Part shown: positions 13,902 to 55,597 of the stretch, piece after piece
How positions within the stretch are numbered: the first letter of the stretch is position 1
How the letters are laid out: each line of letters begins with the position of its first letter
Assembly (NCBI RefSeq): GCF_000215975.1
Contig: NC_015682.1
Coordinates: forward strand, 434,001 to 498,000
Direction of reading: 5' to 3'
Source of the DNA: Thermodesulfobacterium geofontis OPF15
GTDB taxonomy: Bacteria > Desulfobacterota > Thermodesulfobacteria > Thermodesulfobacteriales > Thermodesulfobacteriaceae
Length of the DNA stretch: 64,000 nt
Position numbers and translations under genes: made by a program
Notes under the pieces: generated by a model
Told to the model about the DNA's origin: nothing
The model's database searches: none
What the model saw: the letters and a program-made list of their open reading frames with translations, nothing else

Positions 13902-14002
13902 GGCTATTGGGACCTGTGCGACGGATCCTGGTGAACCCCGCCAGGCCCGAAAGGGAGCAACGGTAGCCAGGCTCTCCGGGTGCCACAGGTATCCCAATAG
14001 CC
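13902..14002 (+). ncRNA. ffs: Small bacterial signal recognition particle RNA (4.5S)
   Basis: About 101 nt. The ends (GGCTATTGGGA and TCCCAATAGCC) pair perfectly, giving one long hairpin. The apical part has the conserved domain IV features: a CCAGGCCCGAAAGGGAGCA tip with a GNRA-like loop, and the asymmetric internal loop that binds Ffh. It is much more GC-rich than its surroundings, as expected for a structured RNA in a thermophile. It binds Ffh to deliver membrane proteins to the translocon. Confidence 0.93.
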
Positions 14003-14015
14003 CCATTTTATAATT

Positions 14016-14112
14016 GGAAGCGTAAGGGGGCTGGTGTCCCTCCCGGGCTTCAAACCCGGTGCACCCCAAAATAAAAGGGGTGGGTGGGTTCAATTCCCAC
14101 ACGCTTCCGCCA
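14016..14112 (+). tRNA. selC: tRNA-Sec, anticodon UCA
   Basis: A 97-nt selenocysteine tRNA. The acceptor stem has 8 bp (GGAAGCGT with ACGCTTCC), then discriminator G and an encoded CCA. The D stem is long. The anticodon loop is CTTCAAA with anticodon TCA, in a CGGG-type stem. A long variable arm pairs CACCCC with GGGGTG across a 9-nt loop, and the T arm is GTGGG-TTCAATT-CCCAC. The 8-bp acceptor, UCA anticodon and long extra arm together are specific to tRNA-Sec. It begins 13 nt after the SRP RNA, so the two may be co-transcribed. No selA, selB or selD and no Sec-containing gene were recognised in this window. Confidence 0.95.
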
Positions 14113-38023: not shown

Positions 38024-38061
38024 AAAAAATGCTCTAAAATTTTTAAATTTTTTTATAAAAG
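38024..38061 (+). repeat. 38-nt upstream element, copy 1 (usp promoter)
   Basis: An AT-rich element that recurs at 39082-39119 with one mismatch in 38. It lies exactly 42 nt ahead of the -35 box in both places. Part of a duplicated promoter module; probably a regulator site or an UP-like element. Confidence 0.75.
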
Positions 38062-38103
38062 TTAATTTTATTCAAAATTAAGCCAATTAGGTCAAAATTA
38101 ACT

Positions 38104-38132
38104 TTGACTTTTTAGAGAAAGAAATGTATTTT
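38104..38132 (+). promoter_or_regulatory. Promoter of the universal stress protein gene
   Basis: A -35 box TTGACT (38104-38109), a 17-nt spacer and -10 TATTTT (38127-38132). The 14-nt string TTGACTTTTTAGAG is shared with the TSUP promoter 1058 bp downstream. Confidence 0.65.
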
Positions 38133-38169
38133 GAAATTATCAAATTAATAGAATGCAGGAGGAATAAAA

Positions 38170-39066
38170 ATGAAGGTTTTTCAACTTTATGAAAAAATGT
38201 TAGTTGCTTGTGGATCAGAACCTTCAGGTTTACACGCTTTAAAAGAGATAATTAAATATATTAAAGAGGATGGTAAACCGATTATTGTTTTATCAGTAGT
38301 TCCTTTTTATGAAGAATTCTATGAAGGAGATTTATATTTATTTACTTCTAAAGAAGATATTTTGGAGAAATTTTATAAACCCTTTAAAGAGGCTTTAGAA
38401 AAGGCTAAAGAAATAGGGGATCAGGAAAAAGTTATTGTAAAAACTGTTTTAGAAGAGGGTGATCCATTTATTAAAATTGTAGATACTGCTTTAAGCGAAA
38501 ATTGTGATTTAATAGTTCTTGGAAGAAAAAAAGAATTAGGTTTAATGGGGAAATTATTAGGAGCAAATGTAGCAAGAACTATAGGGCAATCTCCTATTGA
38601 TATTCTTGTAATTCCTGAAGGTTCAAATTTATCTTTTAATAAAATATTGGTTCCTATAGATGGCTCTATTTACAGTGAAATTGCTTTGAAAAAAGCCTGT
38701 AAAATAGCACAAACTTTTTCTTCAGAACTTTTTATTTTGTCAGTAGTTGATATTCCTGTAGAGATTTCTGCAGAATATCCTGATTTAAGAGAAAGGGTTT
38801 ATAGTAAAGCTAAAAACATCTTAGAGGGAGCGCAAAAATTGGCTGAAAATTTATGTAAGAAGGTAGAGACTGATATAAGAGAAGGTGATCCTGCAGAGAA
38901 AATTTTATCTTTTATTAAAGAGAAAGGTATAGAGACTGTGGTAATAGGTTCTCATGGGAAAACAGGAATGAAGAGATTACTTATGGGAAGTGTTGCTGAA
39001 AAGGTTCTTACATTTGCTTCTATTCCAGTATTGGTTTCTAAAAGTTTAGAATTTAGAGCAATTTAA
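38170..39066 (+). CDS. Universal stress protein with two UspA domains
   Basis: A 298-residue tandem UspA protein. Domain 1 (about 9-152) starts KMLVACGSEPSGLHALK. Domain 2 (about 157-295) starts ILVPIDGSIYSEIALKKA and ends with GSHGKTGMKRLLMGSVAEKVL, the GxxG-x9-GS ATP-binding motif. Domain 1 has the weaker VLGRKKELGLMGKLLGANVART version. Such proteins bind ATP and signal stress or energy state. It has a strong AGGAGG site. It shares its promoter module with the TSUP transporter gene behind it. Confidence 0.93.
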   Translation: MKVFQLYEKMLVACGSEPSGLHALKEIIKYIKEDGKPIIVLSVVPFYEEFYEGDLYLFTSKEDILEKFYKPFKEALEKAKEIGDQEKVIVKTVLEEGDPFIKIVDTALSENCDLIVLGRKKELGLMGKLLGANVARTIGQSPIDILVIPEGSNLSFNKILVPIDGSIYSEIALKKACKIAQTFSSELFILSVVDIPVEISAEYPDLRERVYSKAKNILEGAQKLAENLCKKVETDIREGDPAEKILSFIKEKGIETVVIGSHGKTGMKRLLMGSVAEKVLTFASIPVLVSKSLEFRAI

Positions 39067-39081
39067 TTGTAAAAAATTATG

Positions 39082-39119
39082 AAAAAATGCTTTAAAATTT
39101 TTAAATTTTTTTATAAAAG
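39082..39119 (+). repeat. 38-nt upstream element, copy 2 (TSUP promoter)
   Basis: Matches 38024-38061 at 37 of 38 positions and sits the same 42 nt ahead of a -35 box. It lies 16 nt after the usp stop codon. Confidence 0.75.
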
Positions 39120-39161
39120 GAAATTTTTCTTAAAATTAAAAAAATTTAAATAAATTTGGTT

Positions 39162-39190
39162 TTGACTTTTTAGAGGGAAAATTATAATTT
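39162..39190 (+). promoter_or_regulatory. Promoter of the TSUP transporter gene
   Basis: A -35 box TTGACT (39162-39167), a 17-nt spacer and -10 TAATTT (39185-39190); TATAAT at 39183-39188 is an alternative with a 15-nt spacer. It aligns without gaps to the usp promoter at an offset of 1058 bp. Confidence 0.65.
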
Positions 39191-39225
39191 TAATTATTTA
39201 AAATTTTTATAGAGGAGGGAGGGAG

Positions 39226-40194
39226 ATGTGCAAATTTAAAAAATGGATTTGGTGGATCTGTGGATTATTTTTGATTTTTCTAATTCTTTATTCTTTATCT
39301 TTTGCAGAGGTGAAAGAAGCAACTCAACAAGTTAGCACAAGTTCTTCACTTCCTTGGTGGTTTTGGCCTTTAGCTTTATTCATTTTTACTTTTATTTTAG
39401 GAATTTTAGCTGTTTTAGCTGGTGTAGGAGGAGGTGTTCTTTTTGTTCCTTTAGTAAGTAGTTTTTTCCCTTTTCATATTGATTTTGTAAGAGGAGCTGG
39501 TCTTTTTGTAGCTTTAACTGGTGCATTAGCTGCAGGTCCTGGTCTTTTAAGGCAAGGATTTGCAGATTTGAGACTTTCTATTCCTATGGCTCTTATTGCT
39601 TCAACTTGTTCTATAATAGGGGCTTTAATAGGATTAAAACTTCCTTCTAATATAGTTCAAATTCTCCTAGGAGTTACTATAATTTTTATTGTTATTGTAA
39701 TGGCTATGGCAAAAAAATCAGAATTTCCAGAAGTTAAAGAACCAGACGCCCTTTCCCAAGCTTTACAAATTAGTGGTATTTTTTATGATCCTTCTATAGG
39801 AAAAGAAGTTGAATGGAAAATTCATAGAACACCCTTAGGACTTGGATTATTTTGTTTAATTGGAATCATTGCAGGGCTTTTTGGACTTGGAGCTGGATGG
39901 GCTAATGTTCCTGTTTTAAATCTTATTCTTGGTGCACCAATTAAAGTAGCTGTTGCTACAAGTAAATTTTTGCTTTCTATTACTGATACCTCAGCTGCAT
40001 GGGTATATTTAAATAGCGGAGCAGTGCTTCCTATGATAGTTGTTCCTGGTGTTGTAGGAATAATGCTTGGTTCAGTAGTAGGAGTTAAAGTACTTGCTAT
40101 TACAAAGCCTAAAATTGTAAGATGGATTGTAATTTTAGTTCTCGGTTTTGCAGGGGTAAGAGCTTTACTTAAAGGTTTAGGTATTTGGACATAA
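39226..40194 (+). CDS. TSUP-family (TauE/SafE) membrane transporter
   Basis: A 322-residue polytopic membrane protein of the sulfite/sulfonate exporter family. It has an N-terminal helix (8-27) and then two homologous helical blocks. GVGGGVLFVPLVSSFFPF in the first corresponds to GLGAGWANVPVLNLILGAP in the second, the repeated TSUP motif. A soluble loop separates them (about 168-205). Members move sulfite, thiosulfate or organosulfonates; which one is not visible. It has a strong GGAGGGAGGG site. Confidence 0.88.
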   Translation: MCKFKKWIWWICGLFLIFLILYSLSFAEVKEATQQVSTSSSLPWWFWPLALFIFTFILGILAVLAGVGGGVLFVPLVSSFFPFHIDFVRGAGLFVALTGALAAGPGLLRQGFADLRLSIPMALIASTCSIIGALIGLKLPSNIVQILLGVTIIFIVIVMAMAKKSEFPEVKEPDALSQALQISGIFYDPSIGKEVEWKIHRTPLGLGLFCLIGIIAGLFGLGAGWANVPVLNLILGAPIKVAVATSKFLLSITDTSAAWVYLNSGAVLPMIVVPGVVGIMLGSVVGVKVLAITKPKIVRWIVILVLGFAGVRALLKGLGIWT

Positions 40195-45542: not shown

Positions 45543-46025
45543 TTAAATTTTCCACTTAACCTTTGTTTTTCCTTCAATTTTAAAGTTTCCTGTTTTAATT
45601 TCATATATAAGCCCCTTTCCCCTTATAGTTAAGCCCTTTTTTATTAATATAACTTCTTCGTCTGTAAAAATGAGATATTTTTTAGGATAAAAAATTAGTT
45701 TTTGAGTATAAACTTCTCCATAGGAAAGCGTAACAAGGTGGACATTTTCTTGAAGTATAAATTTATCTTCCTCCTTTTGATAAAATCCTCTATTTGCCCA
45801 AATTTCTAATCCTTTTTCTTTATTTATAAGATAAATGTTTTTGCCTTCAAAATCTCCGTTTTCTTTTTGTAAAAACTCTTTTATTTTAAAACCCCAAACA
45901 AACTGATTATTTTTATAAAGAGCATATTCAAAATCATGAGAAACAATTTGAAAGGGGTAAATGTTATGAAAAGATAAAAAAATAAGAGTGATTATACTAA
46001 ATAGGAGTTTAATAAAATTTCCCAT
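45543..46025 (-). CDS. lptC: LPS export periplasmic protein LptC
   Basis: A 160-residue single-pass protein. The N-terminal helix (about 6-24) anchors it in the inner membrane. The rest is a beta-jellyroll with the OstA/LptC pattern, WANRGFYQKEEDKFILQENVHLVT. LptC passes LPS from the LptBFG exporter to LptA. It sits after kdsC, as in many diderms, but lptA and lptB do not follow here; radC does. It overlaps kdsC by 34 nt. Confidence 0.82.
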   Translation of the reverse strand: MGNFIKLLFSIITLIFLSFHNIYPFQIVSHDFEYALYKNNQFVWGFKIKEFLQKENGDFEGKNIYLINKEKGLEIWANRGFYQKEEDKFILQENVHLVTLSYGEVYTQKLIFYPKKYLIFTDEEVILIKKGLTIRGKGLIYEIKTGNFKIEGKTKVKWKI

Positions 46026-46525
46026 TTTCCCTTTGCTTTTAAAATAAGATCACAAACTTCTCTTACTGCCCCATTTCCTCCAGGATATCTGGTTACATAA
46101 TCTACATATTCATTAACAGGATACCAAGCATTAGGAACCCCTATGGCAAGTCCCACTCTTTTCAAAATAGGAAGATCTACCCAATCATCTCCTATATAAG
46201 CAACTTCTTCGTCTTTGAGATTTTTTTCCTTTAAAAGTTTTTCGTAAGCTTCAAGTTTTTTAAGTTCTCCTTGAATTAAAACCTCAATCCCAAGTTCTTT
46301 TGCTCTATGTTCTATTGCTAATGAAAATCTACTTGAGATAATTCCTACTTCAACACCAATTTTTTGTAGAAGCTTAATCCCCATTCCATCAAGTACATTA
46401 AAATGTTTAATTTCATTATTTTGACTATCTATAATTATTTTTCCATCTGTAAGAACTCCGTCTACATCAAGAAGAAGAAACTTTATTTTACTTGCCTTTT
46501 TTAAGATTTCTTCAGGATATTCCAT
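45992..46525 (-). CDS. kdsC: KDO-8-phosphate phosphatase KdsC
   Basis: A 177-residue HAD phosphatase without a cap domain. LLLDVDGVLTDG carries the nucleophile Asp and general acid. Later motifs include ISSRFSLAIEHRAKELGI and YIGDDWVDLPIL. It releases KDO from KDO-8-phosphate for LPS core synthesis. It overlaps kdsA by 14 nt. Confidence 0.94.
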   Translation of the reverse strand: MEYPEEILKKASKIKFLLLDVDGVLTDGKIIIDSQNNEIKHFNVLDGMGIKLLQKIGVEVGIISSRFSLAIEHRAKELGIEVLIQGELKKLEAYEKLLKEKNLKDEEVAYIGDDWVDLPILKRVGLAIGVPNAWYPVNEYVDYVTRYPGGNGAVREVCDLILKAKGKWEILLNSYLV

Positions 46526-47306
46526 ATTTTTCTACTACACTTCTTAGATCTTTTATTTGTTTTAAAATATTTTCAACTTCTGCCAAAGGTAAAGAATTTG
46601 GTCCGTCACAGAGTGCCTTATCAGGTTCTGGATGAACCTCCATAAATATTCCATCAGCCCCTACTGCAACTGCTGCTCTTATAAGATAGGGGACAAATTC
46701 TCTTTCTCCTCCAGATTTTCCTTCCCCTGCTCCAGGTAATTGAACACTATGAGTGGCATCAAAAATAACCCTCACTCCAAAATTTTTCATAATTGGAATG
46801 GATCTAAAATCAACTACTAAATTTCTATATCCAAAGGAATATCCTCTTTCAGTAAGAAGAACTTCTTGAGGATTAAAAGCTTGAGCTTTTTGTAAAACAT
46901 ATTTCATATCCCAAGGAGACATAAATTGTCCTTTTTTGATATTAATAGTTTTTCCTGTTTGAGAAGCAGTTACCACCAGATCTGTTTGTCTACAGAGAAA
47001 AGCAGGTATTTGAATAATATCTACCACCTCAGAAACAGGTTTTACTTGCCATGTTTCATGAACATCAGTTGTAATTTTTACTTTAGCTTTCCCCTTAATC
47101 TCTTCTAACCAAGAAAGCCCTTTTTCTAATCCAGGACCTCTATAAGAGAAAAGAGATGTCCTGTTAGCTTTATCAAAAGAGGCTTTGAAAACATAATCAA
47201 AATCATATTTTTGAACCAAATCTTTTAAGACTTGAGCAATATAGAAGGCTGTATCAAAATCTTCTAATACACAAGGACCAGCAATTATTAAAAATTTCTT
47301 TTCCAT
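46512..47306 (-). CDS. kdsA: KDO-8-phosphate synthase KdsA
   Basis: A 264-residue TIM-barrel enzyme condensing PEP with arabinose 5-phosphate. Diagnostic parts are IAGPCVLED, FKASFDKANRTS, IPAFLCRQTDLV, KKGQFMSPWDM and FDATHSVQLPGAG. The Cys in AFLCRQTD would be the metal ligand of the metal-dependent class. It is the first gene of the reverse-strand operon kdsA-kdsC-lptC-radC-ispH-tadA. Confidence 0.96.
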   Translation of the reverse strand: MEKKFLIIAGPCVLEDFDTAFYIAQVLKDLVQKYDFDYVFKASFDKANRTSLFSYRGPGLEKGLSWLEEIKGKAKVKITTDVHETWQVKPVSEVVDIIQIPAFLCRQTDLVVTASQTGKTINIKKGQFMSPWDMKYVLQKAQAFNPQEVLLTERGYSFGYRNLVVDFRSIPIMKNFGVRVIFDATHSVQLPGAGEGKSGGEREFVPYLIRAAVAVGADGIFMEVHPEPDKALCDGPNSLPLAEVENILKQIKDLRSVVEKYGIS

Positions 47307-47352
47307 AAAAATATTTTATAATCAAAAAATAACCTTGCAAGTATAAGGACTT

Positions 47353-48912
47353 ATGGATTATTTAAAGTTTGAAAGAAATTATATTAAAAAGAAATGGAGA
47401 AACAAAATTTCTATTGCTCTCATATTTCCTAATTATTATCATGTAGGCATGTCAAATTTAGGATTTTTATATATTTATGAAAGGTTAAATAGATATGAAG
47501 AAATAGTTTGTGAAAGAGTGTTTTTGCCTGAAAAAGAAACTCCTCTAAGATCTATAGAAAGCAATAGACCCTTAAAAGATTTTGATCTTATAATTTTTTC
47601 TATTTCCTTTGAGGTTGATTATATAAATATTTTGAAAATATTAAAATTAGGAGAAATAGATTTAGAACCTCTTAAGAGAAAAGAGATTGTTTTAGCAGGA
47701 GGGGTTGCTACTTGGTTAAATCCTGAACCTCTTTCACCTTTTATTGATGCCTTTTTATTAGGGGAATGGGAAGAAATAGAAGAAAAGATAATTCCTATAA
47801 TTTTAGATTATTTTCAAGATAAAAAGAAATTTCTTGAAAAATTAGATGCCTTTCCATTTGTTTATATTCCTTTTAAGGAAAAAAAAGAAATAAAGGTAGC
47901 TAAGAGTAAGGAGTTAAAAAAAGTTATTTATTCAAAGATCATTAGTAAAAAAGCTGAATTTTCCGATACCTATTTAATAGAAGTTTCTAAGGGATGTGGA
48001 AGATCTTGTAGATTTTGTGCTGCAGGATTTGTTTATAGACCTCCAAGAAGTTATGTAGAAAACCTTTTAAGTGAAGCAGTAGAGGAGATCCCTGACAACT
48101 CAAAGGTTGGATTAATAGGGCTTGAATTTGCAGATAAAAAAGAAATTCTTATGCTTGGGAATAAGCTTTTAGAAAAGGGTTGTGTGCTTACTTTTTCATC
48201 TTTAAGAATAGACGCATTAAATAATGAATTTTTAGAGCTTTTAAAAGGAGCTAAAAGTGTTGCTGTAGCTCCAGAGACAGCCTCTTTAAAATTAAAAAAG
48301 GTTATAAATAAGAATTTGACAGAAGAAGAAATCTTTTGGGCATTAAGTAAGTTTCAAGAAAAGGGATTAAAAAAGGTTAAGTTTTATTTTATGCTTGGTT
48401 TACCTCTTGAAAATTTGGAAGATTTAAAAGAGATAGTAGAATTTATAAAAAAATTATTAGAAAAAAAATATAAGCTAATTTTTTCTTTCACTTTCTCTTT
48501 TTTTATTCCTAAACCTCATACACCTTTCCAATGGGCTAAATTTTTAGATTTAAAGGAGCTTAAAGAGAGGGAAAGGTTTATTAAGCGGGAGCTTTATTAT
48601 ATAAAAAATTTAAAAATAGAATCACCAAAGTCTGCTTTTATTCAAGCATTAATAGCAAGAGGGGGAAGGGATTTGAAGGAGTTTATTTTTTTACTTTCTA
48701 AGGGGGTGAGTTTAAAGGAGGCATTAAAAAGCATTCCTAATATTGAAGATATTTTATCTCCTAAGGATTCCTTAGAAACAGTTTTCCCATGGGATAAAAT
48801 TGATATAGGGGTTAAGAAGGAGTATCTTTGGAGGGAGTGGAAGAGAGCTTTAAGATTAGAGTTTACAGCTTTTTGTAATACCAAGAAATGTAAAATTTGT
48901 GGAGCCTGCTAA
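47353..48912 (+). CDS. B12-binding-type radical SAM protein (TIGR03960-like)
   Basis: A 519-residue radical SAM enzyme. Residues about 1-165 resemble the B12-binding-like Rossmann domain (IALIFPNYYHVGMSNLG). The cluster motif is CGRSCRFC with C215, C219 and C222, in the C-x3-C-x2-C form. VAPETASLKLKKVINKNL is family typical. The C-terminus ends NTKKCKICGAC, a possible second Cys site. The YgiQ/TIGR03960 group is mostly uncharacterised. Its last 126 codons are repeated at 51212-51587 beyond the restriction-modification genes. It is divergent from kdsA (46-nt gap). Confidence 0.88.
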   Translation: MDYLKFERNYIKKKWRNKISIALIFPNYYHVGMSNLGFLYIYERLNRYEEIVCERVFLPEKETPLRSIESNRPLKDFDLIIFSISFEVDYINILKILKLGEIDLEPLKRKEIVLAGGVATWLNPEPLSPFIDAFLLGEWEEIEEKIIPIILDYFQDKKKFLEKLDAFPFVYIPFKEKKEIKVAKSKELKKVIYSKIISKKAEFSDTYLIEVSKGCGRSCRFCAAGFVYRPPRSYVENLLSEAVEEIPDNSKVGLIGLEFADKKEILMLGNKLLEKGCVLTFSSLRIDALNNEFLELLKGAKSVAVAPETASLKLKKVINKNLTEEEIFWALSKFQEKGLKKVKFYFMLGLPLENLEDLKEIVEFIKKLLEKKYKLIFSFTFSFFIPKPHTPFQWAKFLDLKELKERERFIKRELYYIKNLKIESPKSAFIQALIARGGRDLKEFIFLLSKGVSLKEALKSIPNIEDILSPKDSLETVFPWDKIDIGVKKEYLWREWKRALRLEFTAFCNTKKCKICGAC

Positions 48913-48913
48913 G
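48537..48913 (+). repeat. 377-bp direct repeat, upstream copy
   Basis: Covers the 3' end of the radical SAM gene including its stop codon. It aligns without gaps to 51212-51588, offset 2675 bp. Seven mismatches were counted by eye: 48575, 48611, 48615, 48616, 48624, 48802 and 48861. Five of these are within 90 bp of the left edge. Confidence 0.95.
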
Positions 48914-48978
48914 CAAAAGTTTTTTGAATTTTAAGTTTGGGATTTTTAATTTTAGAGTTATGTTATATTATTTAAAAA

Positions 48979-50277
48979 ATGTTTAATAAAGAATCGTCTA
49001 AACAATTGATATTTTTTAATTTCTTAAATCAAGAAAATAGCAAAATAAAATCATCTTTATTTAACCAAAATAAAAAAGTTGCTATACTTTTTAGAAATTC
49101 CATACCTGAAATTCCATCTACAACTTATGGAACCTTTGCTATTTATAAATATCCAGCCAAATTTATTCCCCAAGTAGTTGCTTTTATTCTTAAAAATTAT
49201 GCTAAACCTGGTATGAAAATTTTTGATCCTTTTGCTGGTTATGGTACTGTTGGAATTGTGTCAAGAGTTTATGGTTATAATTATGAACTATGGGATTTAA
49301 ATCCTATATTGGAAGTAATTCATAACACAGCTATAATGAAAAATTTTAAAATAAATCTTTTTAAGTTGATAAAAGAAATAAAAACTTCTGAGAAAATTTT
49401 TATTCCAAAATGGTCCAACCTAAACTATTGGTTTCCTGAAGAATTTATTTCTGTCCTTTCTAAAGCTTGGGGATATGCTCATTCATTGCCGGAAGATGTT
49501 AAATATTTTCTTTTAATTCCTCTAATTAATGTAACAAAATATTTTTCCTATAGTGATGAGAAGGTTCATAAACTTTATAGGTCAAAATATTCTAAAGAAA
49601 AAATAGAAAATCTATTAAAAAGTGATTGGGAAAAAGAATTTTATAATATGCTTGAAAAAGAAATAGTTAAACTTTTAAAAAAAGTTTGGGAGTATAATAG
49701 ACTAAATCCTAAAGATGTAGATTATGAGATAAAAATAGGTATAGATGCATTAGAAACAGACCTTAAAGATGAAGTAAATATTTTAATAACTTCTCCTCCC
49801 TATTTACAAGCACAAGAATATATAAGATCCACTAAATTAGAACTTTTTTGGCTTGGATATAATGAAAATTTCATAAAAGAATTAAGCAAAAAAGAGATAC
49901 CCTATAGAGATGTTAAAGAGATTAAGATATACTCTGAAAAATATTATGAATTTCGAGAAAAAATAGAGGAAAAACATCTTAAAATTTTATATGATAGATA
50001 TTTTTTTAGCATTTTAAAGATTTTTCAAGAACTCGGAGAAAAAGTAACAGATTACATGTGCATTTTTGTTGGTCCGGCTAAAATAAGAACAATTCCAATC
50101 CCAATAGATGAAATAATTATTCAACATCTAACTAATTTTGGATGGGAACATGAAATTACATTTGTAGATAAAATTGTATCAAGAGTTATGTTTGAATCAA
50201 AAATAAATCCAGCCTCTAAAAAAAAAGATAGTAGAATAAAAACAGAACATTTAATAATTCTAAAAAGAAAGATATAA
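48979..50277 (+). CDS. Site-specific DNA methyltransferase (type II, amino-group class)
   Basis: A 432-residue DNA methyltransferase. The SAM-binding motifs X and I (KYPAKFIPQVVAFILKNY and DPFAGYGT, residues 83-90) precede the catalytic motif IV TSPPY (271-275). About 180 residues, probably including target recognition, lie between. TSPPY is most common in N4-cytosine enzymes, so m4C is likelier than m6A, but this is not certain. The gene appears intact. It is followed 1 nt later by the endonuclease, forming an operon within the inserted segment. Confidence 0.88.
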   Translation: MFNKESSKQLIFFNFLNQENSKIKSSLFNQNKKVAILFRNSIPEIPSTTYGTFAIYKYPAKFIPQVVAFILKNYAKPGMKIFDPFAGYGTVGIVSRVYGYNYELWDLNPILEVIHNTAIMKNFKINLFKLIKEIKTSEKIFIPKWSNLNYWFPEEFISVLSKAWGYAHSLPEDVKYFLLIPLINVTKYFSYSDEKVHKLYRSKYSKEKIENLLKSDWEKEFYNMLEKEIVKLLKKVWEYNRLNPKDVDYEIKIGIDALETDLKDEVNILITSPPYLQAQEYIRSTKLELFWLGYNENFIKELSKKEIPYRDVKEIKIYSEKYYEFREKIEEKHLKILYDRYFFSILKIFQELGEKVTDYMCIFVGPAKIRTIPIPIDEIIIQHLTNFGWEHEITFVDKIVSRVMFESKINPASKKKDSRIKTEHLIILKRKI

Positions 50278-50278
50278 C

Positions 50279-51204
50279 GTGATTGAAATACCAAAACAAA
50301 TACTAAAATCTCCCTATAAATTTAAAGAAAAATTAAGTGATTTTATTAAGATCCAGATAGAAAATATTCAAAAAATTCATAATGTTTATTTTAATTTTGA
50401 AGAATTAAGTGATCTTTTACTTTCTGCTTGTAGAAGTAATGATTTTAATGTCCTTTATTTTGAAAGGAGAAAATTATTTATTAATGAAGATAAAATTTCT
50501 GAATGGATTCATAAAAAGCTTTTATCTAATACTATAGCATTAAAAATAGATGATGAAGATATACTTAGGTTACTTATATTTTGTATTGAAATAACTTATC
50601 AAATGTTTTCTGGTGGGACAAGAGCAACAATAACTGCGAAAGCATTTAGAGAAAGAAGAAGAACTTTTGAATCTATTTTAGTAGATCAGTTTGTTGGGAA
50701 ATTAGGGGAGGTTATGCTAAAAAAATTTTTAGAGCAAAATTTTCCAGGAATTAAAATAGAATTGGATTGGAGGATATCTACTCAACTTGAAAAACACAAA
50801 AATGATATTATCAATGCGAAGAAAAAAGTAAGTATAAAATCAACACCGACTTTAGCTGGAATATGGGCAGAAGCAGATATAGGGTATGATTATGGCATTA
50901 TGGTTAAATGTTCTGTACCTAAACAACCAATTTTACAATTTTTTATTGAAGTTTGTGGATTTAAAAAACTTATTGATTTTGTTGAAGGTAAAATTCCTAC
51001 TTATGTGAAAAGATACAAACAGAACTGAAAGGTTTTGTTTGTGGTTATTTTAAAACAAGTGAATATAAACCTATTGAAGTAGGAAAGGAACTTCCTTATA
51101 TGGGTAAAATTAGAGAGAAAAGATATCTTGTAAATATTAATGAGTTGAAATATGAAAAAATCTTCATGGAGAGCCTTTCTTCAGGATACAGGACTTATAC
51201 TTGA
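50279..51204 (+). pseudogene. Type II restriction endonuclease, frameshifted near its end
   Basis: Partner endonuclease of the adjacent methyltransferase. The open frame from a GTG at 50279 runs 249 codons to a TGA at 51026. It contains a PD-(D/E)xK-like pattern: KLGE (E144), D176 in KHKNDI, and VSIK with K187. About 51017-51021 the frame slips by -1, and about 61 further codons stay open to a TGA at 51202. They read GFVCGYFKTSEYKP and IREKRYLVNINELKYEKIF in good protein-like sequence. One missing A in the ACAAAC run would explain it. The long frame is the likely ancestral product. Activity without the last 60 residues is unknown; the specificity is not recognisable. Confidence 0.75.
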
Positions 51205-51211
51205 ACAATCT

Positions 51212-51587
51212 TAAATTTTTAGATTTAAAGGAGCTTAAAGAGAGGGAAATGTTTATTAAGCGGGAGCTTTATTATATAAAAAATTCAAAGGTAGAATCCC
51301 CAAAGTCTGCTTTTATTCAAGCATTAATAGCAAGAGGGGGAAGGGATTTGAAGGAGTTTATTTTTTTACTTTCTAAGGGGGTGAGTTTAAAGGAGGCATT
51401 AAAAAGCATTCCTAATATTGAAGATATTTTATCTCCTAAGGATTCCTTAGAAACAGTTTTCCCATGGGATAAAATTAATATAGGGGTTAAGAAGGAGTAT
51501 CTTTGGAGGGAGTGGAAGAGAGCTTTAAGATTAGAATTTACAGCTTTTTGTAATACCAAGAAATGTAAAATTTGTGGAGCCTGCTAA
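51212..51587 (+). pseudogene. Duplicate C-terminal fragment of the radical SAM gene
   Basis: Encodes the last about 122 residues of the radical SAM protein (from FLDLKELKERE to CKICGAC), with five amino-acid changes and no catalytic domain. An ATG-less open frame from 51201 covers it, but there is no ribosome site and no cluster motif. It is best read as a remnant made by the long target duplication. It overlaps the treT stop by 4 nt. Confidence 0.88.
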
Positions 51588-51588
51588 G
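51212..51588 (+). repeat. 377-bp direct repeat, downstream copy
   Basis: Second copy of 48537-48913, about 98% identical with no gaps. Its right edge runs directly into the native treT end, whose stop codon lies inside the repeat. Recombination between the copies would remove 2675 bp and restore one clean radical SAM-treT junction. Confidence 0.95.
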
Positions 51589-52792
51589 AATTTTGATTTA
51601 AAATTTTATATATAAGAAGAAGATAGTCTCTTAAATGACGTATAATTAAAAATCTGTGTTTTACTCTTTCTTTTGCGTGAAATCCCATTTTTTCTCTTAA
51701 ATGTTTATTAGCTAAAAGCTGTTTAATTCTCATCGCAGCTCCTTCAACACTTTCTACGAGATATCCTGTAATACCATGAACAATTTGTCTTTTAATCCCT
51801 CCAACATTTGATCCTACAACAGGTTTTGATTTCCACATAGCTTCTGAAACAACAAGTCCAAAACCTTCTTTTAAAGATTTTTGAACTACTACAGTTGCAC
51901 CTCTTTGAAAGGCATTTATCTCTTTATGACTATCAGGAGGGAGATTAAGAACAAGTATATCCCTTTCATCAGCAATAAGATTCAAAAGTTCTTTATAAAC
52001 CTCTTCTCCTTCGGGATCATCTGAAGCAAAAGAGCCAGCTAAAATAAGCTGACAATCATATTTTTTCTTTACAAGTTTAAAAGCTTCAATAACTCCAAAG
52101 GGATCTTTTAATCTATCAAAACGAGAAACTTGAAGAATGATAGGCTTTTCAGGATTTATTCCAAATTTAGTTAAAGTATTTTTAATTTCCTCTTCTGAAA
52201 GATCTATATTTTTGGGATGCAGGGGATCTATAGAAGGAAGAATTGTGTAAGTAGGAATTTCAATTTTTTCATAGACAAATTCAGGCATATGGAAAATACA
52301 AGCATCATAAGAATTTAGAAAGTTTTCAATAAAATTCCAAGCTCTTGGATCAGGGGTTGAGGTGTCTATATGACATCTCCAGATCCATTTCTGTTTTTTT
52401 TGCTTATTTACAATAAGTCCCATAGGTTGAGGATCGTGAATAAAAACTACATCATAGTTTTCTGTGTCTATCTCTTTTAGATTTTCATAAGTAATTTTCA
52501 AATAATAAACAAATTCTTCACTACTGATACCTTTTTCAGAGGGTAAATGAAGTAAATTATGTAATTTTTTAGTGAAACTAAAAAATTTTTCATCACCTTT
52601 AAAAACTTTCCAATCTGTCTTTATTCCAAGTTCATTCATAAGAGGAATAAATCTTTGTAGAATTTCAGCAACCCCTCCTCCTTTATAGGTAGAATTTACA
52701 TGAAGTACTTTTAAATCCTTTAATTTTCTACTTAAGATAAAAAGTTCCTGAAGAGTTTCTTCACCAACAAAAGGTATATATTGTTCTAACAT
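51584..52792 (-). CDS. treT: Trehalose glycosyltransferring synthase TreT-like (GT4)
   Basis: A 402-residue GT-B enzyme. HVNSTYKGGGVAEILQRFIPLM near the N-terminus is the TreT/trehalose phosphorylase hallmark. VVFIHDPQPMGLI, RCHIDTSTPDP, LQVSRFDRLKDPFGVIEAF and the donor motif EGFGLVVSEAMWKSKPVVGS follow. TreT joins NDP-glucose and glucose to trehalose. It is the last gene of otsAB-DUF5752-treT and overlaps the middle gene by 7 nt. Its stop codon lies within the 377-bp repeat. Confidence 0.88.
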   Translation of the reverse strand: MLEQYIPFVGEETLQELFILSRKLKDLKVLHVNSTYKGGGVAEILQRFIPLMNELGIKTDWKVFKGDEKFFSFTKKLHNLLHLPSEKGISSEEFVYYLKITYENLKEIDTENYDVVFIHDPQPMGLIVNKQKKQKWIWRCHIDTSTPDPRAWNFIENFLNSYDACIFHMPEFVYEKIEIPTYTILPSIDPLHPKNIDLSEEEIKNTLTKFGINPEKPIILQVSRFDRLKDPFGVIEAFKLVKKKYDCQLILAGSFASDDPEGEEVYKELLNLIADERDILVLNLPPDSHKEINAFQRGATVVVQKSLKEGFGLVVSEAMWKSKPVVGSNVGGIKRQIVHGITGYLVESVEGAAMRIKQLLANKHLREKMGFHAKERVKHRFLIIRHLRDYLLLIYKILNQNS

Positions 52793-53415
52793 ATTTTTTC
52801 TTCTAAAATTTTTATTATTTCTTCTTTGATTTCATATAAAGTCAGGGTATAAGGGTCTAATTTATTTATTTTTTCTGCTTTTTTAGCCTCTCCTATACTG
52901 TATAACCAGGCAGAATAATCGTTTATAATGGTTTTATTTTCTATTCTTGAAGTTATGAGATGATAAAAAAGGGAGTTTATACTTGATTTTTTAATTCCTT
53001 CTATAAATTCATCTAAATTATGAGCAATCTTTCCACATTCTATAATTTCTCTTTCAGCAGTAATAAAATAAAAGGGATATTTTTCTTTTCTATTCCAATT
53101 TTTATCATAATTTTTTTCAAGAATATTTATTAGGGCAATTCTTAATTCTTCAAGATCAAAATAATCTAAAGGGTCGATAATAGATAGTTTTTCAGCTAAT
53201 AAAAGATAGCCATTTTTAAAAAACCAATAGGATATACTATTAGTGTAAAAGGTAGGCAAATTATGATAATTAAAAATATTTATATACATGTGATAAAAAA
53301 TGGAAAATTTGTCAACCTCTTTTAGAGCTTTTATAAATTCATTAATAGAATAAACTTTAATTCCTGTATACTTGGGAATCCATAATTCAGATTTAAAAAT
53401 AAAGGGATTATTCAT
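52786..53415 (-). CDS. DUF5752-like protein with internal duplication
   Basis: A 209-residue protein made of two similar halves of about 85 residues. EFIKALKEVDKFSIFYHMY with WFFKNGYLLLAEKLSIIDPLDYFDLEELR matches EFIEGIKKSSINSLFYHLI with WLYSIGEAKKAEKINKLDPYTLTLYEIK. I believe it belongs to DUF5752, which co-occurs with trehalose genes, but that is from memory. There is no catalytic motif. It overlaps both neighbours by 7-8 nt, so it is translated together with OtsAB and TreT and may regulate or scaffold them. Confidence 0.7.
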   Translation of the reverse strand: MNNPFIFKSELWIPKYTGIKVYSINEFIKALKEVDKFSIFYHMYINIFNYHNLPTFYTNSISYWFFKNGYLLLAEKLSIIDPLDYFDLEELRIALINILEKNYDKNWNRKEKYPFYFITAEREIIECGKIAHNLDEFIEGIKKSSINSLFYHLITSRIENKTIINDYSAWLYSIGEAKKAEKINKLDPYTLTLYEIKEEIIKILEEKIC

Positions 53416-55597
53416 TTTTTAGAAAACTTTCTAAAAGGTTTCTGATTTCAATGTATGATTTTGCACTATATTTAGCTGATGATCTTCCCATTCCTATTTT
53501 TATAGTGATTGTATTTTCTGGAAGATTAATAAATAAATCTTCATCAGTGGTGTCATCTCCCGCAGCAAGTATAAAATCATAAGGTTTTTCTCTTAAAAAT
53601 ATATTAGCTGCAACCCCTTTATCAATCCCTGCAGGTCTTACTTCTACGACTTTATTTCCCAAAATAAGATTAACTTGCATGTTTCCAGTTAATATCAATA
53701 ATTCATCAATTAATTCTGCAACCCTTAAATTTGCAAGTTCTGGATCTGCATTTCTATAATGAAAAACTATAGAAAATTCCTTTTCTTCAATAAAGGATTG
53801 AGGCAAACGGTCTACATATACTTCCATTATATTTTTGATAGTTTTTTTAAAATCAGAAGACAAATTAGTAAGAGTTTCCCAATCTTTGTTATATCTTTTA
53901 ATAAATATTCCGTGTTCACAAATAAAATTTAATTTTAATCCATTAAACCATTTTTCTAAATCTTCTTTTTTTCTACCAGAAATAATTACTATATCTGTAT
54001 TAGGAATTTCAGAAAGTGATTTTAAAAGATTTTTTAATTCTTTATCTGGAGCAGCCAAATAGGGTTTTGATACCAAAGGTACTAAGGTTCCATCGTAATC
54101 AAGGAAGAGTATTTTATTAGACGATTTATGGAAAGCTTCTTTTATTTCATCAATAAGAGGAGGGGTTAGAAGTTGAGTACTAAATTTAAATTTTTTCTCA
54201 TTAATAGATTCAAGGGTTGTAAGGAAATCATTTCCCCATTTTATTATATTATATCTTTTTAATCTTTCTTGCATAGAAGAAATCCTTTCTTTTTGTTCTT
54301 CTTCAGAGATCTCAAAGGCTTTTTCAATAGCATTAGTTAATTCATCAATTGAGTTAGGATTTACAATAAAAGCCTCTCCTAATTCTTTAGCACTTCCTGC
54401 GAATTCAGAAAGTATTATAACTCCCCTTTTATCTTTTCTTGAAGCTACAAATTCTTTAGCAATTAAATTCATACCATCTTTTAAGGGGGTAACTAAAATC
54501 ACATCTGTAGCTAAATAATGCGCTACAAGTTCTTCAAAATCAAGTGATCTATAATAATACAATACAGGAATCCAGTGTATTTTACCAAATTTCCCGTTAA
54601 TTTCACTTATTTTTTCCTCTAATTGTTTTTTCATTCTTTGATAATGTTCTACTCCTTCTCTTGAAGGAACAACTACCATAATTAAAACTACCTTTTCATG
54701 AAAATCTGGGCGTTTAAGTAAAAGTCTTTCAAAGGCTAAAAGTCTGTTATAAATCCCTTTAGTATAATCAAGTCTATCTACGGAAAAAATAATTTTTTTC
54801 CCTTTTAATTGGTTTTTGATATTTTTAACTAATTTTTTTATTTTTCTTTTTTCGCAGGCATTATAAAATAATTCAAAATCAATCCCCATGGGAAAGGTTT
54901 CTACTTTTATTAATCTATCCTGATACAAAATTAATCCAGTTTTATGATCAATTCCCAAGGTACGAGAAAGGGTTCTTAAAAAATTAGCAGTATATTCATA
55001 AATGTGGAACCCTATTAAATCACATCCTAAAAGACCTTCAAGGAGTTCCCTTCTCCAAGGAAGTTGCATAAAAAGTTCAGGTGGTGGGAAAGGTATATGG
55101 AGAAAAAAACCTATAGTTGCAGAGGGGAAAAGATTTCTTATCATAGAGGGTAAAAGAAGTAAATGATAATCATGAATCCATATTATTGAATCTAAAGTCA
55201 CATATTTTGCTACCTCATTACAAAAAAGTTTATTTACCTCTATATAAGTTTCCCAATAACTTTCATCATAAACAACATGACTTGGGAAACCGTGAAAAAG
55301 TGGCCAAAGCACTTTATTGCAAAATCCATTATAAAATTTGTCAAACTGCTTAGCAGGAATAAAAACAGGATGGTTTTTTAGTCTTTTTGCTTTTTCCTTT
55401 ATAATTTTGAAAGTAGATTTATTTAAATGTGAACCAGGCCACCCAATCCAGACATAATCTTTAATTTTAGATTTTTTTAAAAAAGTTGTTAAACCAGAGA
55501 CCAATCCTCCAGGGCTCTTAATAAAACTTAAGTCCGACTTGATAGTAAAAGGAAGTCTATTTGCTACTATAATTAGTCTTTTAAAAGAATTTTCCAT
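53408..55597 (-). CDS. otsAB: Fused trehalose-6-phosphate synthase/phosphatase (OtsA-OtsB)
   Basis: A 729-residue bifunctional enzyme. Residues 1-470 are a GT20 synthase: ANRLPFTI, SPGGLVSGL, WIHDYHLLLLPSMIR, SVDRLDYTKGI and the donor motif DGMNLIAKEF. Residues about 485-729 are a HAD trehalose-phosphatase: LFLDYDGTLVPLVS, IISGRKKEDLEKW and AAGDDTTDEDLF. It converts UDP-glucose and glucose 6-phosphate to trehalose. The fused order resembles eukaryotic TPS/TPP and some thermophiles. It is the first gene of the trehalose operon. Confidence 0.95.
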   Translation of the reverse strand: MENSFKRLIIVANRLPFTIKSDLSFIKSPGGLVSGLTTFLKKSKIKDYVWIGWPGSHLNKSTFKIIKEKAKRLKNHPVFIPAKQFDKFYNGFCNKVLWPLFHGFPSHVVYDESYWETYIEVNKLFCNEVAKYVTLDSIIWIHDYHLLLLPSMIRNLFPSATIGFFLHIPFPPPELFMQLPWRRELLEGLLGCDLIGFHIYEYTANFLRTLSRTLGIDHKTGLILYQDRLIKVETFPMGIDFELFYNACEKRKIKKLVKNIKNQLKGKKIIFSVDRLDYTKGIYNRLLAFERLLLKRPDFHEKVVLIMVVVPSREGVEHYQRMKKQLEEKISEINGKFGKIHWIPVLYYYRSLDFEELVAHYLATDVILVTPLKDGMNLIAKEFVASRKDKRGVIILSEFAGSAKELGEAFIVNPNSIDELTNAIEKAFEISEEEQKERISSMQERLKRYNIIKWGNDFLTTLESINEKKFKFSTQLLTPPLIDEIKEAFHKSSNKILFLDYDGTLVPLVSKPYLAAPDKELKNLLKSLSEIPNTDIVIISGRKKEDLEKWFNGLKLNFICEHGIFIKRYNKDWETLTNLSSDFKKTIKNIMEVYVDRLPQSFIEEKEFSIVFHYRNADPELANLRVAELIDELLILTGNMQVNLILGNKVVEVRPAGIDKGVAANIFLREKPYDFILAAGDDTTDEDLFINLPENTITIKIGMGRSSAKYSAKSYIEIRNLLESFLKNE

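Follow-up and report, generated by a model that had tools for sequence, protein, structure and literature searches.

We analysed a window of 64,000 nucleotides from the Thermodesulfobacterium geofontis OPF15 chromosome, i.e., the whole stretch of DNA presented above. At 47353-52792 of the window, a restriction-modification (RM) module lies between two direct copies of the 3' end of a radical SAM gene, followed by the convergent gene treT. The features are as follows (window coordinates):

47353-48912, plus strand: radical SAM gene (519 aa; Pfam Radical_SAM, Radical_SAM_N2), the target, kept whole by the left copy of the repeat
48537-48913, plus strand: left copy of the duplicated target, in frame as the 3' end of the radical SAM gene
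48914-51211, plus strand: insert of 2298 bp with a 65-bp leader, M, and R; missing from the empty sites of six congeners, its boundaries set by the repeat
48979-50277, plus strand: M, an intact DNA methyltransferase (432 aa) of the amino-methyltransferase type that carries the motifs FDPFAGYG and TSPPY
50279-51028, plus strand: front part of R (249 aa), restriction-endonuclease-like; 67% identical to an intact 336-aa homologue, PADLOC REase_II 2e-4
50986-51156, plus strand: C-terminal remnant of R in another frame, past a frame-breaking deletion; profile match with E 7e-16 and frame-aware alignments
51157-51214, plus strand: possible last remnant of R past a second frameshift, suggested by a short frame-aware alignment
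51212-51588, plus strand: right copy of the duplicated target, a radical SAM 3' end that lacks its head and abuts treT
51584-52792, minus strand: treT (Pfam TreT_GT1), the convergent neighbour, with its stop codon in the right copy

The two copies of the 377-bp repeat are gap-free, are offset by 2675 bp, and differ by 7 mismatches (98.1% identity). The stop codon TAA of the radical SAM gene is at 48910-48912, and its duplicate is at 51585-51587. The stop codon of treT (51584-51586, minus strand) is located within the right copy and overlaps the copied radical SAM stop. The initial annotation had reported an ungapped 377-bp repeat 2675 bp downstream that includes the radical SAM stop and, in its right copy, the treT stop; we recovered the same coordinates and the same positions of the stop codons.

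A 322-kb sample of the genome was surveyed for dispersed direct repeats with a length of 45 bp or more, an identity of 80% or more, and copies within 20 kb of each other. The survey yielded two in all, the 377-bp repeat and a copy of the 3' end of nfi at an hsd operon. Because only one other such repeat was obtained, the 377-bp repeat is far beyond chance; the sample was chosen to take in the restriction loci, so that the enrichment is indicative only.

The substitutions between the copies were polarized against 12 relatives. The left copy has the common base at 48611 and 48802, and the right copy carries protein-changing substitutions at the matching sites (L to S and D to N, respectively). 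At the synonymous site 48861, the common base is kept by the right copy. From this polarity, the right copy therefore appears to be free of constraint, and the duplication is not of very recent date. The divergence of 1.9% suggests that the copies have coexisted for some time. In principle, recombination between them is predicted to be able to excise the module cleanly.

Repeats this near-identical can misassemble. The two copies differ at 7 sites, however, and each continues into distinct unique sequence. Moreover, the circular chromosome of OPF15 (1,634,377 bases; source Obsidian Pool, Yellowstone) is a finished genome, whose assembly combined 454 and Illumina reads with a 7-kb paired-end library and gap PCRs, the additional PCRs numbering 75 (PMC3624685). 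An assembly artefact was rejected on these grounds and has next to no probability.

The radical SAM gene is akin to TIGR03960, with a score below the cut-off of this family, and its orthologues across the genus are of equal length. Six congeners (G004, G008, G012, G002, G009, and G007) have empty sites with one copy of the repeat and no module. The gene order in these genomes is a DAHP/KDO8P-synthase-like gene, the radical SAM gene, treT, a DUF5752 gene, and a trehalose-phosphate synthase/phosphatase gene, and the radical SAM gene and treT stand tail to tail in all six. Joining the window flanks in silico restored an empty site in which both the radical SAM gene (519 aa) and treT (402 aa) are intact. 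This sequence (positions 1-2765) gave a single end-to-end match to each of G004, G008, and G002, whereas the occupied locus was split into two matches, both of which span the repeat. The sequence that follows the right copy is similar to intergenic DNA in close relatives; the sequence that follows the left copy is unlike it. We also looked for relatives that lack the module and still carry both copies, and two adjacent copies were found in no relative searched. In these alignments, the empty sites together with the split match are the signature of an insertion with target duplication. The congeners thus agree with the earlier proposals that the pre-insertion locus was the radical SAM gene facing treT, that the outer flanks are native, and that the 5' copy keeps the host gene whole, its 519 aa being the length found in congeners.

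M and R are co-directional and are the sole genes in the insert. M matches Pfam N6_N4_Mtase, PADLOC MTase_II (3.6e-28), and phrog_18146 (1e-119). The G+C content of M and R is 25-26%, compared with 29.5% for the window. Both genes are absent from 13 of 13 other genomes of the genus that were searched, and R has a match in 3 genomes of a 395-genome phylum sample, T. geofontis OPF15 being one of the three. The family-level relative G022 has an M-R pair with 45% (M) and 43% (R) identity. A closer pair is present in the Candidatus Hydrogenedentota MAG SKW61 (L048), in which M is 66.7% and the adjacent R 67% identical. The gene order of this pair is the same as in OPF15; in contrast, its R is full length (336 aa), its neighbours are different, and no target duplication flanks it. 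Around the M-R pairs of G022 and L048, no flanking repeats were found save for a CRISPR-like array; this array (L048 6762-7062) has 37-nt repeats every 66 nt and lies downstream of the Hydrogenedentota pair.

M is also 66.5-68% identical over nearly the whole protein to the methylases of the Sulfolobus viruses STSV1 and STSV2, which are annotated as similar to PspGI methylase. One further feature line belongs here:

L071 2971-4209: STSV1 methylase, about 67% identical to M

The 7.2-kb stretch of STSV1 that was examined contains no homologue of R. Searches of plasmid records and viral contigs gave no match for R, and M had weak plasmid matches. Avoidance of CCWGG was considered as a sign of PspGI-like specificity and rejected, the observed/expected ratio of 0.79 being unremarkable among the 5-mers compared. 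Judged by the distribution, best relatives, and base composition of its genes, the module is foreign and was most likely acquired horizontally.

The initial annotation had described a methyltransferase/endonuclease pair. The methyltransferase part stands, as the reading frame of M is intact; the endonuclease gene is damaged, and the ORF at 50279-51028 is its front part. Two homologues of R (313 and 336 aa) have a conserved C-terminus in common, and the frame in OPF15 ends at 249 aa. Frame-aware alignment to each of the two homologues places a frame-breaking deletion at about 50997 and a second frameshift at about 51154. Compared with the Hydrogenedentota gene, the net loss in the deletion is 61 nt. 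The evidence for the second frameshift is a short alignment, and a sequencing error in an A-run could account for it. Read through both breaks, R would end at the TAA at 51212-51214. The right copy opens with these three bases, which would place the end of the module exactly at the repeat. The join between insert and repeat may have used this short shared TAA. Against its homologues, R reads as a decayed gene and is not intact. Having two frame breaks in R, the module is thus probably now a solitary methyltransferase. With the methyltransferase frame intact and the cognate endonuclease gene broken relative to two homologues, these are the type II RM features of the locus.

The assignment of R as an endonuclease is based on its place beside M, a weak PADLOC REase_II match, and conserved D/K/E residues (D176, K187, and E198). 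The R homologue of G022 matches the same PADLOC family with 8.7e-6. In endonucleases recognizing CCGG/CCNGG, such as PspGI, R-(D/E)R comes after a permuted active site of the form PD...K...D/E (PMC6344858). By eye, the conserved lysine of R is not closely followed by R-(D/E)R. Comparison of R with solved structures, PHROG, and a fold search gave nothing useful, and the fold model was poor (pLDDT 63).

The insert and the nearby genes scanned contain no transposase or integrase gene, the nearest tRNA is about 7 kb from the insert, and inverted repeats of at least 25 nt are absent from 46000-54000. An element using an integrase, a transposon, or a tRNA site was rejected, as no such gene or site was found; the initial annotation had likewise seen none of the three. 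A tyrosine recombinase that integrates site-specifically and rebuilds the 3' end of the target gene, as with many islands, would explain why the module landed at the 3' end of a gene and why this gene stays whole. Apart from the missing integrase, the homologous M-R pairs of G022 and L048 are located elsewhere and are not flanked by gene-end repeats. Attachment cores are usually far shorter than 377 bp, which also counts against this explanation, and we regard it as very unlikely.

Campbell-type integration would start from a circle that bore the module together with 377 bp of the radical SAM gene, and would take one homologous crossover. Such an event yields direct repeats at both ends and does not need a transposase. 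However, the insert holds just M and R and no replication or mobility gene, the circle would have to capture a T. geofontis gene fragment beforehand, and the plasmid searches gave nothing for R and weak matches for M. Integration of a circle is therefore an improbable origin of the locus.

Nobusato et al. in 2000 and Furuta et al. in 2010 reportedly described RM systems that inserted with long target duplications. Insertion of RM systems with a long and variable target duplication is a published category (PMC3031569, PMC3874152, PMC1643837), in agreement with the precedent in other bacteria that had been claimed for this locus. As in the published cases, the OPF15 locus has an RM module, no mobility gene, and a long direct repeat of the target, and module-free relatives carry one copy. 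It differs from them in that 377 bp exceeds the published length on the "order of 100 bp" (PMC3874152), in that the host is a hyperthermophilic Thermodesulfobacterium and the endonuclease is decayed, and in that the empty sites are in other species and not in strains of the same species. Another published class of restriction units combines a short duplication with imperfect terminal inverted repeats (PMC3874152); inverted repeats of 25 nt or more were not found around the insert in OPF15, which is in this respect unlike that class. By its sequence features, the OPF15 locus matches the category of RM insertion with long target duplication.

Long duplications are present at two of the four restriction-type loci of the genome, namely the M-R module and the hsd operon. 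No long flanking duplication was found at the MjaI-like pair (L064) or at the SNF2 helicase/Eco57I-type methylase locus (L066). The former (L064 9175-11089; G000:C1:1157174-1159088) is a further type II pair of OPF15, made up of an N6/N4 methylase gene and an MjaI-family endonuclease gene; an ABC transporter gene borders it on one side and a polynucleotide phosphorylase gene on the other. The latter (L066 5139-11921) contains an SNF2/PLD helicase gene, then an Eco57I-type methylase gene, and is possibly a further defence system.

Elsewhere in the window, a direct repeat of 121 nt with 76% identity (38024-38144 and 39082-39202) is located upstream of two adjacent ORFs (38170-39066 and 39226-40194); an Rfam scan of this repeat gave no family match. 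A bacterial SRP RNA at 13905-14112 is directly followed by a selenocysteine tRNA.

The type I hsd operon lies after the endonuclease V gene nfi at G000:C1:135347-143036 (= L065 8848-16537). Its order is hsdM, a gene for a 143-aa protein, a gene for a ThsB-like TIR protein, hsdS, two small ORFs, and hsdR. From reading the sequence alone, the two small ORFs resemble a nucleotidyltransferase/HEPN pair. The duplication is as follows:

L065 8704-8764 (G000:C1:135203-135263): 3' end of nfi
L065 16555-16615 (G000:C1:143054-143114): copy of this 3' end after hsdR, 61 bp with 92% identity

The hsd locus is like the radical SAM locus in that the 3' end of the host gene is repeated just past the module. 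It is unlike it in that the system is of type I, the repeat is 61 bp at 92%, the site is also occupied in G010 and G012, and the mscL gene to the right is specific to OPF15 among the genomes searched. In the empty sites of G008, G011, and G002, nfi faces a P-type-ATPase-like gene. In OPF15, mscL sits between the nfi duplicate and the ATPase-like gene, and it is absent from 14 relatives searched. We had considered nfi-mscL as the ancestral pair and rejected it, since mscL is in no relative searched and nfi faces the P-type-ATPase-like gene in the empty sites. The stretch L065 16620-18290 to the right of the nfi duplicate comprises mscL and adjoining P-type-ATPase-like pieces in two separate ORFs. 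It is a mosaic, the ATPase pieces being closest to G010 and the next gene 97% identical to G004. Sequence comparison suggests that the nfi-hsd block moved by recombination in flanking genes.

This locus bears on another possible origin of the 377-bp repeat. If the module had first stood next to the radical SAM gene of another strain, with no duplicate, its DNA could have undergone homologous recombination inside the radical SAM gene of an empty-site strain and an illegitimate join on the right. Such homology-facilitated illegitimate recombination would leave the recipient's own 3' end as the right copy. The 1.9% divergence of the copies would then be strain divergence. G010 has the hsd operon without a duplicate, and the block in OPF15 is unusually G010-like, which shows that blocks recombine between lineages; this is our main reason for keeping the explanation. 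On the other hand, for this module, which is absent from all congeners searched, an occupied site lacking the duplicate is not known, and by eye both copies at the hsd locus are nearer to each other than to G010. We consider this origin possible and rather doubtful. The same tentative standing is given to the broader idea that long target duplications around restriction modules in this lineage were left behind when occupied and empty haplotypes recombined at tail-to-tail gene junctions, with one homologous and one illegitimate side, and are not products of an intrinsic transposition-like activity. If this were true, a single genome would show it for two modules of different type (II and I).

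Our preferred reading, to which we assign a probability of about 0.82, is that a foreign type II RM module was inserted at the radical SAM/treT junction with target duplication and decayed later. For its central part, an insertion with target duplication in the T. geofontis lineage, our confidence is high. The horizontally acquired module would have entered the tail-to-tail junction, and the insertion would have duplicated the final 377 bp of the radical SAM gene. One end of the module would have been joined just past the radical SAM stop codon, and the other end 377 bp upstream in a second copy of the target, at TAAATTTTT. This geometry requires module ends joined 377 bp apart in two target copies; these could come from sister chromosomes, or one copy could be resident and the other incoming. 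The joining itself may have been an illegitimate end joining or a template switch involving the two locus copies, a mechanism for which we see roughly even odds, and a dedicated recombinase would have had no part in it. Since the host stop codons overlap, an insertion without duplication would tend to damage one gene. The duplication would have left both overlapping convergent genes whole, which may be the reason why it was tolerated. Afterwards, the headless right copy would have drifted and the endonuclease decayed, and the methyltransferase most likely remains as a solitary enzyme.

How RM genes enter chromosomes without a transposase has been a question since long target duplications were described in 2000. 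Outside Helicobacter, the OPF15 locus provides a clean example, for which six congeners show the empty site. It suggests why such a duplication is tolerated, as two overlapping convergent genes stay whole. The kinship of the M-R module to the methylase of an archaeal virus and to an M-R pair of Hydrogenedentota points to genes being exchanged between phyla and between domains. A second restriction locus in OPF15 with a similar scar makes the mechanism testable in hot-spring populations.
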